Source: a virus. From it: a stretch of 28,367 nt of DNA. The translations under genes were made by a program, and so were the position numbers. Location: positions 1-28,367 of IMG/VR virus record IMGVR_UViG_3300046009_007699; one strand, written 5' to 3'. Positions 7,603 through 19,949 of this stretch are shown here, in pieces; position 1 is the stretch's first letter; every line of letters starts with the position of its first letter. The notes under the pieces were generated by a model. It was not told where the DNA came from and did no database searches. It was given only the letters and a program-made list of their open reading frames with translations.

Positions 7603-8811
7603 ATGTCAAAAAGGAATTACACACTGGACACAGTAAAACGGCTTCGCGGGTCACTGCAAGTAGAACATACCCTGGCCAAACGTGGTGCAGAAAAACTAAG
7701 ATATCTATTGGCCAAAGAGCCATACATCAACACACTGGGCGCCTATAACGGACAAATGGCTGTGCAACATGCCAAGGCCGGATTGAAAGCCATTTACCTG
7801 TCAGGTTGGCAAGTAGCAGCAGCCAACAACACAGCAAATACCACTTACCCTGATCAAAGTTTATATCCGGTAGACAGTGTGCCTAGAGTGGTAAAAGGTA
7901 TCAACAATGCTTTTCGTCGTGCAGATCAAATTGATTTTGCTGAAGGTAAAACTGATGTAGATTATTTCTTGCCTATTGTGGCTGATGCGGAAGCAGGTTT
8001 TGGCGGTGCTTTAAATGCATACGAGCTTATGACTCACATGATCGAAGCCGGTGCAGCTGGTGTGCATTTTGAAGATCAATTGGCCAGTGAAAAAAAGTGC
8101 GGACATCTAGGCGGTAAAGTATTGGTACCAACCAGCCAAATGATTCGCACACTCAATGCGGCCAGACTGGCAGCAGACGTAGCTGGTGTTGATACTGTGA
8201 TCATGGCCCGCACAGATGCCGAAGCAGCCACCTTGATTACCAGCGACCATGATCCTCTGGACAAGGACTATATAATTGATGAACGAACTGAAGAAGGCTT
8301 CTTCAAATTTAAAAATGGCATTGAAGCATGCATCGCCAGAGGATTGGCCTATGCGCCGTACGCTGATCTACTCTGGTTCGAAACCAGCACCCCTGATGTC
8401 GCGCAGGCAAAAAAGTTTGCGGATGCGATTCACGCCAAATATCCTGACCAGATGTTGGCGTACAATTGTTCGCCGAGTTTTAATTGGAAAAAATTCTTAA
8501 GTGATGCTGAATGTTTGAATTTCCAGAAAGAACTTAGCAAACTAGGTTACAAGTTTCAATTTATTACTCTTGCAGGATTTCATTGTGTTAACTTGGCCAC
8601 ATTCAATCTTGCAGAACAATATAAAAATCAAGGCATGGCGGCCTATGCAGATTTTCAAGAAACAGAATTTGCTGCACAAAGCCGTGGTTTCACAACAGTA
8701 AAACATCAACGCGAAGTTGGTGTAGGATATTTTGATTTGATCAGTGAAGCGGTGGGAGCCACCAGCACTGTGGCCAATCGAACATCCACAGAAGCAAGTC
8801 AATTTCACTAA
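7603..8811 (+). CDS. aceA: Isocitrate lyase (glyoxylate shunt) inserted between nrdA and nrdB
   Basis: Splits isocitrate into glyoxylate and succinate, the first step of the glyoxylate bypass. The 402-residue frame is intact and strongly resembles bacterial AceA throughout. The signature KKCGHLGGK (catalytic Cys166) identifies isocitrate lyase rather than 2-methylisocitrate lyase, whose loop reads KRCGHR. Also present are YLSGWQVAA (65-73), DAEAGFGG (128-135) with Mg-ligand acidic residues, HFEDQ (155-159), and NCSPSFNW (288-295) of the active-site lid. It is about 30 residues shorter than the E. coli enzyme (434), mostly at the N-terminus, with the catalytic core unaffected. It sits 9 bases after nrdA behind AAGGAAAA and 5 bases before nrdB, so all three must share a message. 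No malate synthase, aceK or iclR is visible. Codon use looks like that of its neighbours, suggesting the gene is not a very recent import. Likely an auxiliary metabolic gene acting in the host cytoplasm. Confidence 0.96.
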
Positions 8812-17376: not shown

Positions 17377-18582
17377 GTGAGTGATCTGTATCAACATTGC
17401 AGTTTTTGTGGAAAACACAAAGACAGTGTAAAAAAACTAATTGTAGGGGATCGTGTTGGTATTTGTAACGAATGTGTTATTCTTTGCACAGACTTACTCA
17501 CAACCGAAGACACAGAACCAACTTCCGAAATAGTAACCAATCCCTTGGATCCAAGGGAAATTAAAAAATTTCTTGATCAATATGTTATAGGACAAAATGC
17601 TGCAAAAACAGTGTTGGCAGTGTCCATTGTTAATCATTACAAACGAATCAATGGATCCAGTGATGATGTTGAGATTGAGAAGTCTAATATTTTAATGCTA
17701 GGCCCAACGGGCTCTGGTAAAACGCTGCTGGCTCGCAGCGTTGCACGATATCTTGATGTGCCATTTGCAATTGCAGACGCAACAAGTCTAACCGAGGCAG
17801 GCTATGTTGGCGATGATGTTGAAAGTACAATTGCCAGACTTCTACAGGCAGCAAATGGTGACGTAGAAAAAACTCAACGTGGCATTATATTCATTGATGA
17901 AATTGACAAAATAGCAAGAAAAAGCGAGAGTACCAGTATCACACGTGATGTATCTGGAGAAGGTGTACAGCAGGCTTTGCTTAAATTAGTAGAAGGCACT
18001 AAGTGCAGAGTTCCTAATAGCAGCACTGGTCGCAAACATCCCAACAGTGACATGATTGAAATAGATACAAAGAACATATTGTTTATTGCCGGTGGTGCTT
18101 TTGTGGGCTTAGAAAATCTAGTTAAAAATAGAGTAAAAGGCACTGCAATTGGTTTTGGTGCTAGTATAAATGAACAAACTGACACAGATTTGATGAATCA
18201 ATCAATGCCAGATGACATCGTAAAGTTTGGTATGATTCCAGAGTTTGTGGGCAGATTCCCTACCTGGGTAACTCTAGAGCAGTTGGGTCTTGATGAGCTA
18301 ATCAACATTTTAACTCAGGTCAAAAACTGTTATGTGAAACAGTATCAGTGGTTGTTTGCACAGGATGAAATAAAATTAGAATTTGACCAAGACGCACTTG
18401 AAGCCATTGCCAAGCGAGCACAACAAAATAAAACCGGAGCTCGGGGACTACACAGTGAACTTGAACGAGTGCTGATCCCTCATATGTTTGATTTAAAGCA
18501 GTACAAAGACAAAGATTTGGATCAGATTTTGATAAATGCAGATTTGGTAAATAACCCAAGAACTTTAATTTCAGGGGGATAA
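17377..18582 (+). CDS. clpX: ClpX, AAA+ unfoldase of the Clp protease
   Basis: 401 residues, close to bacterial ClpX (about 424), starting with GTG. The N-terminal zinc finger has Cys8, Cys11, Cys30 and Cys33 (CSFCGK...CNECV). Walker A is GPTGSGKT, Walker B is IIFIDEID, and the pore loops GYVG (142-145) and RKH (219-221) are intact. The ClpP-docking loop IGF is retained (258-260), so the phage protein should be able to engage host ClpP; no clpP is visible here. It may redirect the host protease to new substrates, or supply unfoldase for virion or replication remodelling (inference). Followed after one base by bS21. Confidence 0.96.
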   Translation: MSDLYQHCSFCGKHKDSVKKLIVGDRVGICNECVILCTDLLTTEDTEPTSEIVTNPLDPREIKKFLDQYVIGQNAAKTVLAVSIVNHYKRINGSSDDVEIEKSNILMLGPTGSGKTLLARSVARYLDVPFAIADATSLTEAGYVGDDVESTIARLLQAANGDVEKTQRGIIFIDEIDKIARKSESTSITRDVSGEGVQQALLKLVEGTKCRVPNSSTGRKHPNSDMIEIDTKNILFIAGGAFVGLENLVKNRVKGTAIGFGASINEQTDTDLMNQSMPDDIVKFGMIPEFVGRFPTWVTLEQLGLDELINILTQVKNCYVKQYQWLFAQDEIKLEFDQDALEAIAKRAQQNKTGARGLHSELERVLIPHMFDLKQYKDKDLDQILINADLVNNPRTLISGG

Positions 18583-18583
18583 G

Positions 18584-18808
18584 TTGGCTCGCAAAGGAAT
18601 CACAGTGTATGTTGGTGCAGACGGCAATGTAGAAAAAGCTCTGCGAAAACTAAAAAAGAAAGTGCAGGAAAGCCGTTTGCTCTTGGAGCTACGTGATCGT
18701 CAACACTATGTAAAACCTACCACAGAACGAAAAATCAAAAAAGGGGCGGCACGAAGTAGATGGCGCAAATACATAGACAGCCAAAAACTCCCCCCAAAAA
18801 ACTTTTAA
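18584..18808 (+). CDS. rpsU: Ribosomal protein bS21 (small subunit)
   Basis: 74 residues resembling bacterial bS21: the helical N-terminal VEKALRKLKKKVQESRLLLELRDRQ (quoted in part), then the diagnostic YVKPTTERK motif and a very basic C-terminus. bS21 sits near the anti-Shine-Dalgarno end of 16S rRNA and helps initiation, so a phage copy could bias ribosomes toward phage messages. It starts with TTG (18584) behind AGGGGG (18573-18578, 5-base spacer), an unusually strong site. An ATG is absent from the plausible N-terminus. Phage-encoded bS21 is known from aquatic phages. Its stop overlaps the next ATG (TAATG). Confidence 0.9.
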   Translation: MARKGITVYVGADGNVEKALRKLKKKVQESRLLLELRDRQHYVKPTTERKIKKGAARSRWRKYIDSQKLPPKNF

Positions 18809-19068
18809 TGTATATAAAATTTGTGCTGCCACATGGTGCTGGCGGTACAGCAGCAGCAGTTGCACTAAATCGTCTAAGTACGTTGCTCCACAAATGGGGT
18901 AACCGTTACAACATTGTTTATAAAATGAAACCCCACAAGTATTCAGTGAGAGTAACATTTGACAACGATCAACACTATGTTTTGTTTGCATTAACTTGGA
19001 AACCAGATCACCCCTACTTTGCCAATTTTGAACTTGTAGAACCAATGAAAATTGACAAAACCAAATAA
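18808..19068 (+). CDS. Small phage protein, unknown function
   Basis: 86 residues from ATG 18808, in a TAATG overlap with bS21; an in-frame upstream ATG at 18760 lies entirely within bS21 and is unlikely. Predicted alpha/beta: a helix around 10-27 (AGGTAAAVALNRLSTLLHKW), then strands (YNIVYKM, YSVRVTF, HYVLFAL). No known motif. It sits between bS21 and hsp20, and its 3' end carries the hsp20 -35 box. Confidence 0.72.
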   Translation: MYIKFVLPHGAGGTAAAVALNRLSTLLHKWGNRYNIVYKMKPHKYSVRVTFDNDQHYVLFALTWKPDHPYFANFELVEPMKIDKTK

Positions 19069-19080
19069 TTGCTGTATAAA
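19052..19080 (+). promoter_or_regulatory. Consensus sigma-70 promoter for hsp20
   Basis: TTGACA (19052-19057), a 17-base spacer and TATAAA (19075-19080). The -35 box lies in the last codons of the preceding gene. No sigma-32 boxes (CTTGAA / CCCCAT-type) are seen. The predicted start near 19087 coincides with the first base of the 5' hairpin. The -10 region also reads TATAAATA, the T4 late-promoter core, so use by a late factor is possible. Confidence 0.75.
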
Positions 19081-19086
19081 TATGTT

Positions 19087-19142
19087 TGTAGCGCCGATGG
19101 TCGGGCTACAATTAGTCAACTTGCTTAATAAAGGAGAATGAC
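19087..19142 (+). promoter_or_regulatory. ROSE-like RNA thermometer in the hsp20 leader
   Basis: The leader folds by eye into two hairpins. Hairpin I pairs TGTAGC (19087-19092) with GCTACA (19105-19110) and CCGA (19094-19097) with TCGG (19101-19104), leaving one bulged G and a 3-base loop. Hairpin II pairs GTCA (19115-19118) with TGAC (19139-19142) and TTGCTT (19121-19126) with AAGGAG (19131-19136), closing on the loop AATA. The TTGCT segment against AGGAG, with its internal G-G mismatch and U-G pair, is the defining U(U/C)GCU anti-Shine-Dalgarno motif of ROSE elements. These control small heat-shock genes in proteobacteria: the stem melts at higher temperature and exposes the ribosome binding site. 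The ATG (19143) is the next base after the stem. Rests on manual pairing. Confidence 0.7.
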
Positions 19143-19580
19143 ATGACTAAACTTCAAACTTTTGATCTCACACCTTTTTATCGTAGTGCCATTGGAGTAG
19201 ACCGTCTTTTTGATCGCATTGTAAATCAAATTGATCATGCTTCACAACACAACTATCCTCCCTACAACATTGTAGAAACAGGCGAAAACACCTATGAAGT
19301 GCAGATTGCTGTGGCTGGCTTCGCGCAAGGCGAAGTTGAGATCACAGTCAAGGACGGCGAATTGATTATCACAGGTGAAAAAACATCTAATTTGCCAGAA
19401 GGACATGTGTACCGTCATCAAGGTATCAGTGCAAGGAAATTCATACGCACTTTTAGTCTAGGTGATCATGTGGAAGTAAAAGACGCAGAATCACGAGATG
19501 GTATCTTAACTGTTAAATTAGAACGTATAGTTCCTGAAAGTGCAAAACCTAAAGCTATTGCAATCAACTACGTTTCCTAA
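19143..19580 (+). CDS. hsp20: IbpA-like small heat-shock protein (Hsp20)
   Basis: 145-residue chaperone that holds unfolding proteins. It begins FDLTPFYRSAIGVDRLFDRI, the IbpA/IbpB-type N-terminus, then an alpha-crystallin domain (about 35-130) with PPYNIVE, VAGFAQGEVEI, DGELIITGEK, a GISARKFIRTFSLGD segment and GILTVKLERIVPE. The ending AIAINYV is the I-x-I-type tail used for oligomerisation. Length and order match the family. The ribosome binding site is AAGGAG at 19131-19136, buried in the ROSE-like hairpin. A downstream promoter within its last codons drives clpS. Hsp20 genes are frequent in T4-like aquatic phages, where a role in virion or replication-complex folding has been proposed. 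Confidence 0.93.
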   Translation: MTKLQTFDLTPFYRSAIGVDRLFDRIVNQIDHASQHNYPPYNIVETGENTYEVQIAVAGFAQGEVEITVKDGELIITGEKTSNLPEGHVYRHQGISARKFIRTFSLGDHVEVKDAESRDGILTVKLERIVPESAKPKAIAINYVS

Positions 19581-19586
19581 TATAAT
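19558..19586 (+). promoter_or_regulatory. Sigma-70-type promoter for clpS
   Basis: TTGCAA (19558-19563), a 17-base spacer and a perfect TATAAT (19581-19586). The -35 box is inside the last codons of hsp20. Transcription would start around 19593, at the foot of the hairpin 19591-19620, giving clpS its own message with a structured 5' end. Confidence 0.65.
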
Positions 19587-19590
19587 GTAA

Positions 19591-19620
19591 ATACAGGGAG
19601 GGGCTACTCTCTCCCTGTAT
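19591..19620 (+). promoter_or_regulatory. Perfect 10-bp hairpin in the clpS leader
   Basis: ATACAGGGAG (19591-19600) is the exact reverse complement of CTCCCTGTAT (19611-19620). The loop GGGCTACTCT can add G-T, G-C and G-T pairs, leaving a CTAC tetraloop. No T-run follows, so it is not an ordinary intrinsic terminator. It begins at the predicted clpS transcription start and ends 3 bases before the GAGGA ribosome binding site (19624-19628). A 5' mRNA-stabilising stem or a processing site between hsp20 and clpS are the simplest readings. Confidence 0.7.
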
Positions 19621-19634
19621 ACCGAGGATAAAAA

Positions 19635-19949
19635 ATGCCGCATGCAGATAACGAAGTTCAAACACGAATTGATATAAATCATCAGGTCAAAGAACCACCA
19701 ATGTTCAGAGTGATTTATATCAATGACAACAAAACCAGTGTAGAATTTGTAGTAGAAAGTTTGATTGAATTCTTTGATTATACGCCTGTGACAGCAGAAA
19801 AAATAACCATGGACATTCATGAAACTGGTGCAGCCACGGTGGCTGTGTTACCGTATGAAATAGCAGAACAAAAGGGTGCTGAGGTTACTCTAAGTGCAAG
19901 ACAGCAAAATTATCCATTGCAGATTAAGTTAGAACCTGATGAAGCTTAA
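19635..19949 (+). CDS. clpS: ClpS, N-degron adaptor of the Clp protease
   Basis: ClpS delivers proteins with destabilising N-terminal residues to ClpA(P). The 104 residues match the family length (106). After a flexible N-terminus (1-19) come PPMFRVIYINDNKTSVEFVVESLIEFF-type core strands and helix, DIHETGAATVAVLPYEIAEQKGAEV, and the C-terminal PLQIKLEPD. Residues that bind the N-degron are Asn30, Asp31 and His62. The position equal to E. coli Asp36 is Asn32 here, which may change substrate preference. It is notable that the phage carries ClpX and ClpS but neither ClpA nor ClpP in this window. Has its own promoter and leader hairpin. The stop overlaps the reverse-strand phosphoesterase gene by 4 bases. 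Confidence 0.9.
   Translation: MPHADNEVQTRIDINHQVKEPPMFRVIYINDNKTSVEFVVESLIEFFDYTPVTAEKITMDIHETGAATVAVLPYEIAEQKGAEVTLSARQQNYPLQIKLEPDEA

Follow-up and report, generated by a model that had tools for sequence, protein, structure and literature searches.

A ROSE-like two-hairpin leader on hsp20 and other chaperone genes of phages, with matched bulged purines

The hsp20 gene of a 28,367-base virus record, which also carries ribonucleotide reductase, DNA ligase, and PAAR genes of phage type, is preceded by a ROSE-like element. This element lies at positions 19086-19150 of the window (the whole stretch of DNA that was analysed, at its full length of 28,367 bases) and comprises two hairpins upstream of hsp20, whose ATG is at 19143. 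Comparison with relatives confirms that the leader is real and more than a chance arrangement. The same leader is very widely distributed in phages, and very probably places phage chaperone genes under translational control of the ROSE type. In the window, it occupies the short stretch between an unnamed open reading frame (18760-19068) and hsp20, with the following features, all on the plus strand.

19052-19057, plus strand: TTGACA, resembling a -35 element from its sequence and located 17 nt from TATAAA; putative promoter element.
19075-19082, plus strand: TATAAATA, putative -10 element and/or T4-type late promoter, based on the enrichment of NATAAATA 5' of hairpin I.
19086-19111, plus strand: hairpin I, TTGTAGC[G]CCGATGGTCGGGCTACAA, with a bulged G at 19093, based on the ROSE_3 match and covariation.
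19112-19118, plus strand: 5' arm of the hairpin II lower stem, TTAGTCA, whose partner in the minimum-energy fold is TGACTAA at 19144-19150.
19120-19126, plus strand: anti-Shine-Dalgarno (anti-SD) sequence CTTGCTT, containing the ROSE motif U(U/C)GCU, with a bulged G at 19123.
19130-19136, plus strand: 3' arm of hairpin II, AAAGGAG, containing the Shine-Dalgarno (SD) sequence, based on the ROSE_3 match and pair counting.
19144-19150, plus strand: 3' arm of the lower stem, TGACTAA, that is, the UG of the start codon and codons 2 and 3, based on the fold and on leader statistics.
19143-19580, plus strand: hsp20, 145 amino acids, IbpA-like (Pfam HSP20, E 9.4e-18; PHROG 432, 1.8e-38).

The preliminary description of this DNA had proposed a hairpin I followed by a TTGCTT stretch facing AAGGAG, an IbpA-like gene downstream, and a ROSE-like anatomy in a phage context. 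The first two are recovered at the positions listed above, and the third is borne out by the two-hairpin leader, by its relatives, and by covariation.

ROSE elements are defined by two to four hairpins in the 5'UTR of a small heat-shock gene, the 3'-most of which holds a U(U/C)GCU motif in imperfect pairing with the SD sequence (PMC3669281). The window has two hairpins upstream of hsp20 and CTTGCTT opposite AAAGGAG, and the motif or a near variant is found in 71 of 79 phage hsp20 leaders. A G is present in the SD helix, conserved as G or A among leaders, and would correspond to the non-canonical or unpaired G whose removal locks ROSE elements. At the gathering level, no Rfam family matched in the window. 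A permissive search over 301 nt returned ROSE_3 (RF02523) at 19085-19148 with 27.6 bits (E 6.6e-4), below the gathering score of 43 bits for this family, and phage relatives score between 24.5 and 34.1 bits, always upstream of hsp20. The covariance-model comparison suggested in the preliminary description thus gives a weak match to ROSE_3 rather than none, and the leader fits the literature definition of a ROSE-like element but misses the score for Rfam membership.

The leader resembles the short ROSE-like thermometers of Pseudomonas ibpA and ROSE_3 in having two hairpins, a U(U/C)GCU motif opposite the SD sequence, a bulged-G hairpin I, and a small heat-shock gene downstream. It differs from them in its phage genome, its Rfam score below the cut-off, its A/A and shifted-G variants, and its presence on dnaK and groES as well; in addition, the phage AUG can join the lower stem, whereas the AUG is unpaired in Pseudomonas (PMC3669281). 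ROSE_2 (RF01832, enterobacterial ibpA) has a UCGCU motif and a hairpin I that can also be drawn with a bulged G, but the phage leaders differ from it in sequence and hairpin layout, and permissive searches with them gave no ROSE_2 match. The lambda cIII leader (PMC4166951) is a phage RNA thermometer, a character that the leaders described here may share; it switches between two alternative folds, is closed at high temperature, and is unrelated in structure and gene. We found no report of phage ROSE elements or phage hsp20 thermometers in the open-access papers searched.

The association of the anti-SD motif with chaperone genes is strong. With relatives chosen by protein similarity only, and motif classes scored at most 45 nt from the start, the motif is present in 71/79 phage hsp20 leaders and in 63/63 phage dnaK leaders (CUUACUU variants being counted as the motif in the latter), against 6/188 other genes with a GGAG site at the same loci; two of these six are groES genes with the full element. 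A DNA pattern specifying only anti-SD, SD, and ATG gave at least 123 matches; among the matches listed, 99 precede hsp20 and 8 precede dnaK by similarity, and four more precede a variant or truncated hsp20 as judged by eye. The control pattern with a scrambled anti-SD gave 59 matches over the whole collection, made up of 14 natural-variant hsp20 leaders and 45 background matches.

Hairpin I shows the strong covariation among relatives that the preliminary description had proposed to look for. Pair counting in 73 leaders, with an alignment that was fitted to the model and leans towards it, gives changes on both sides at 9 of 11 pairs, and 210 double-change cells, where shuffled controls give 67.5 (sd 8.1) and slid pairings no more than 47. 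Many standard pair types are also found at each of the outer pairs 3-6 in the raw sequences of 300 distinct hairpins. Little covariation is possible in hairpin II because one of its arms is the SD sequence, and the argument for this predicted hairpin is the conservation of its other arm.

The lower part of hairpin II and its unpaired G are best described somewhat differently than before. The lower stem initially proposed, GTCA with TGAC ending at the ATG, can be formed only by the window and a handful of very near relatives, L001/L002 among them. As a conserved stem it had to be abandoned, the TGAC just before the ATG being absent from the other relatives. Most relatives can pair the lower stem with the start codon and codon 2, as seen for TTAGTCA/TGACTAA in the window, GTCAT/ATGAC in L004-L009, and CGTTC/GAACG in L010. 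Of 201 distinct leaders, 114 have a run of 5 nt or longer upstream of the anti-SD that is complementary to the region of the start codon, with about 21 expected when the upstream stretch is shuffled. The dnaK leaders mostly have no lower stem of this kind.

Similarly, the G-G mismatch initially read in the TTGCT/AGGAG helix is possible, but a single bulged G in CUU[G]CUU/AAGGAG fits equally. We favour the bulge, given the variants CUUC[G]UUU/AAAGGAG and CUU[A]CUU, in which the SD helix still has one purine left unpaired. Indeed, 14 hsp20 leaders (L232, L252, L262, L264, L269, L272, L275, L280, L282, L284, L288, L293, L303, and L307) carry CTTCGTTT and not CTTGCTTT, with the same hairpin I and a bulged G displaced by one position, and the CTTCGTTT..AAAGGAG variant preserves the helix despite this shift. 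In the Pseudomonas ROSE element, deletion of the G in the SD helix locks the element (PMC3669281).

The two hairpins share a more specific feature. In hairpin I, one purine bulges out between a C-G pair on one side and a U-G or C-G pair on the other, and a drawing of the anti-SD helix with this local motif is also possible, namely U-G, bulged purine, C-G, and Y-R. The bulged base is G in both hairpins of 311 leaders and A in both hairpins of 104, counts that should not be taken as frequencies, some of the leaders having been picked by their anti-SD pattern; selection on the base in hairpin I was limited to the search with the tight phage version of the element (at least 119 contigs), and the bulged base of about 20 leaders was read by eye. 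The 21 remaining leaders are mostly parser failures, with two true mixtures by eye (L386, dnaK, and L467, hsp20). Non-chaperone open reading frames matched by chance show no such preference in bulge identity. Within one phage locus, the bulge class of hsp20, dnaK, and groES is concordant for 85 of the 86 loci compared. A small extra hairpin, such as GGGCATAGTGCCC or GAGCATAGTGCTC, is found between hairpins I and II in most A-class leaders of dnaK and in a number of other leaders, for example L469, L506, and L368.

Two gene trees bear on this concordance. The A class needs only 2 changes on the Hsp20 tree, where A-class proteins form nearly one clade, and 6 changes on the DnaK tree, at least 3 of them forced by well-supported branches. 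In each of the independent DnaK-tree pairs, hsp20 switches together with dnaK (3/3, too few for significance). The Hsp20 residue that best separates the two classes corresponds to A58 of the window protein and is T in 40 of 41 A-class proteins, which, again, are nearly one clade. Judged from the Hsp20 tree, the matched bulges rest on few events. Moreover, the distance between dnaK and hsp20 is often only about 2 kb, and concordant bulges could also result if the two genes are exchanged as a block. We regard the matched bulges as a strong hint, but not proof, of a base-specific reader of the leader, perhaps Hsp20.

Among named phages, the motif and an upstream hairpin are found in 20 of 20 hsp20 leaders, two records with bacterial ibpA being set aside. 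They include Synechococcus phages ACG-2014d/e/f, syn9, S-SSM7, S-CAM1, S-CAM9, and S-MbCM100, cyanophages P-RSM6, S-RIM12, and S-SSM6b, Prochlorococcus phage P-SSM5, Pelagibacter phages HTVC115P and Mosig, Methylophilales phage Melnitz-3, and Agrobacterium phage Atu_ph07, in which the motif takes the form TTGCTttttGGAG. The gene itself has been listed since 2010 as a core gene of T4-like cyanophages, with a role that was only guessed (PMC3037559, PMC7674155). The two records set aside, Campylobacter phage A11a (L250) and Pseudomonas phage Y7 (L249), contain bacterial ibpA with ROSE_2/ROSE_3 matches above gathering (ROSE_2 in the enteric ibpA of L250) and are probably host contamination. The tight phage version of the element is present in at least 119 viral contigs, whereas a search of 84,980 genomes of bacteria and archaea gave none. 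Among bacterial Hsp20s, those of alphaproteobacteria come closest, mostly at 38-46% identity, and the hsp20 leaders of SAR11 and Rickettsiales show the same layout, which makes hosts of this type a plausible source.

The preliminary description attached the element to the hsp20 of a single phage, where it is indeed present, but this view is too narrow since dnaK, groES, and a small helical protein are also found behind it. We built a covariance model, R1, from 29 phage leaders including that of the window, where it finds one site. Over 20 phage records (E<1e-3), R1 matches almost only leaders of hsp20, dnaK, one groES (verified by a Cpn10 match), and small helical proteins, with one clear false match (L606). 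The small targets L624, L625, L626, and L630 are lysine-rich and probably helical proteins of about 90 residues (MFTADALIDTVQTGKKTFVNTF...), and L629 has a different protein of this kind behind the same leader. No Pfam family matched the small helical proteins, and the name "phasin-like" considered for them was dropped, being unsupported by any Pfam family.

In 385 alphaproteobacterial genomes, R1 gives 23 matches (E<=1e-4) in 22 genomes, mostly upstream of hsp20, the other targets being dnaK (L675, L685, L686) and rpoH-like sigma factors (L673, L677, L681, L682, L687). In 398 genomes spread over the phylum, 4 genomes were matched, all upstream of hsp20 (L690 by eye). The alphaproteobacterial dnaK and rpoH-like leaders indicate that targets beyond small heat-shock genes are not confined to phages; groES was seen as a target in phages only, among the genomes searched. 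ROSE elements have been described as always tied to small heat-shock genes (PMC4166951), and the targets found here are broader than those described for this family.

Regarding transcription, NATAAATA, the core of the T4-type late promoter, precedes hairpin I by at most 45 nt in 243 leaders out of 403 distinct ones, compared to 13 of 1520 background stretches, and most often ends 4-6 nt before the hairpin I stem. In the window, a -35 element of the sigma-70 type is present as well and is correctly spaced (TTGACA-N17-TATAAA); its -10 part can also be read as the T4-type late promoter TATAAATA. We noticed no site for a heat-shock sigma factor, in line with the earlier suggestion that none is involved. 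From the position of the promoter core, the transcript would start at or shortly ahead of hairpin I, probably late in infection.

Folding with standard energies gives the hairpin II core of the window -2.2 kcal/mol at 20 °C, -0.1 at 37 °C, and +0.55 at 42 °C, a predicted marginal stability fitting for a melting switch. The predicted low-temperature fold, proposed as a check in the preliminary description, has the start codon and the 3' part of the SD site paired. Over all leaders, the median for the G-class core is -1.4 kcal/mol at 15 °C and +1.1 at 37 °C, and the A-class core is at +1.8 kcal/mol at 37 °C. Ensemble folding at 20 °C gave no reduction of SD accessibility relative to other phage genes (hsp20, p 0.18; dnaK, p 0.97), and this accessibility shifts little with temperature. 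The only clear difference in accessibility is at the hsp20 start codon, with a median of 0.19 unpaired versus 0.53 at 20 °C. Standard energy rules miss the non-standard pairs for which ROSE elements are known, and standard folding thus neither confirms nor refutes a thermometer. On these calculations, heat as the only signal is not established, and the weak predicted stability, together with the matched bulges, suggests that there is room for a protein factor.

We lean towards an explanation in which hairpin II represses translation until folding stress, and in which heat and titration of bound Hsp20 together open it. The hsp20 mRNA would begin at hairpin I or a little ahead of it, this hairpin being a stable 5' stem that carries a single bulged purine. 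CUUGCUU would then pair with the SD sequence in hairpin II, whose lower stem would also bind the start codon in many hsp20 leaders, and we infer that closed hairpin II would hold translation down. Protein-folding stress would open hairpin II directly by heat and probably also through Hsp20, which, bound to both bulged-purine hairpins, would keep them closed until unfolded protein draws it away. In phages with the leader on dnaK or groES too, the same signal would raise these products together.

This proposal has a parallel in gammaproteobacterial IbpA, which represses its own mRNA via the 5'UTR, with R93 and Y34 being required (PMC10474464). In both cases an IbpA-like protein is associated with a ROSE-bearing leader, binding being putative on the phage side. 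The residue equivalent to R93 is R in 130 of 132 phage Hsp20s and that equivalent to Y34 is Y or F in 131 of 132, whereas the equivalent of K98 is not kept. Nevertheless, the R93 and Y34 equivalents are also present in nine Hsp20s from loci counted as leaderless or scoring only by chance, so that their conservation is permissive evidence only and no pointer to leader binding. The rpoH-like leaders described above would fit a control of rpoH translation by IbpA, as has reportedly been seen in E. coli.

Three other explanations can be weighed against the combined action of heat and Hsp20. A pure RNA thermometer, in which temperature melts hairpin II with no other reader, would agree with the behaviour of ROSE elements in reporter and in vitro tests (PMC3669281) and with the predicted stability of the window core crossing zero near 37 °C. 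We nevertheless find it unlikely, given that it leaves unexplained why the bulge of hairpin I, far from the SD, matches that of hairpin II, that the core, taken across all leaders, is no longer stable by 37 °C and has no more than marginal stability at 15 °C, and that SD accessibility barely changes with temperature in the ensemble calculation. A leader serving as operator for another RNA-binding protein, a phage or host translational repressor, with temperature playing no part, would account for the twin bulged-purine motif and for its identity being matched across genes, but the targets are almost all stress chaperones and the alphaproteobacterial ones (hsp20, dnaK, rpoH-like) also point to proteostasis, which makes this explanation quite improbable. 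Finally, the leader might be only a stabilising 5' hairpin next to a strong ribosome site, with an incidental CUUGCUU match, as mRNA stabilisation by 5' hairpins is possible and standard folding shows no special SD occlusion. The presence of CUUGCUU-type motifs in 71/79 and 63/63 leaders versus 6/188 other genes, and natural variants that preserve the pairing, leave this explanation with hardly any probability.

Returning to the explanation based on both heat and Hsp20, we tentatively extend it to a possible, still doubtful RNA-level chaperone regulon of many large phages. The leaders of hsp20, dnaK, groES, and the small proteins would share the twin bulged-purine element and a phage-encoded reader, most simply Hsp20, and the bulge base (G or A) would co-evolve with this reader, so that all members within one phage switch together. 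A conserved stress-type leader on phage hsp20, dnaK, and groES would mean that expression of these genes is designed to stay low until it is needed, and the same switch on several chaperone genes in very many phages suggests that phages have their own chaperone stress control. For the search for the factor that reads ROSE elements, the matched bulged bases are a concrete point of entry. Should phage chaperones be gated by heat or proteotoxic stress, a rise in temperature would directly affect how abundant phages of marine and fresh waters run their infection programme.

Other genes of the window include a proteostasis cluster at 17377-19949, in which a ClpX-like ATPase, ribosomal protein S21, hsp20, and the Clp adaptor ClpS adjoin; a Clp adaptor is also found near hsp20 in Agrobacterium phage Atu_ph07. 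The window also encodes a phage-borne isocitrate lyase family protein at 7603-8811 (Pfam ICL, 3.5e-100), and NifU/IscU-like and IscA-like iron-sulphur proteins at 457-837 and 2193-2519, respectively.
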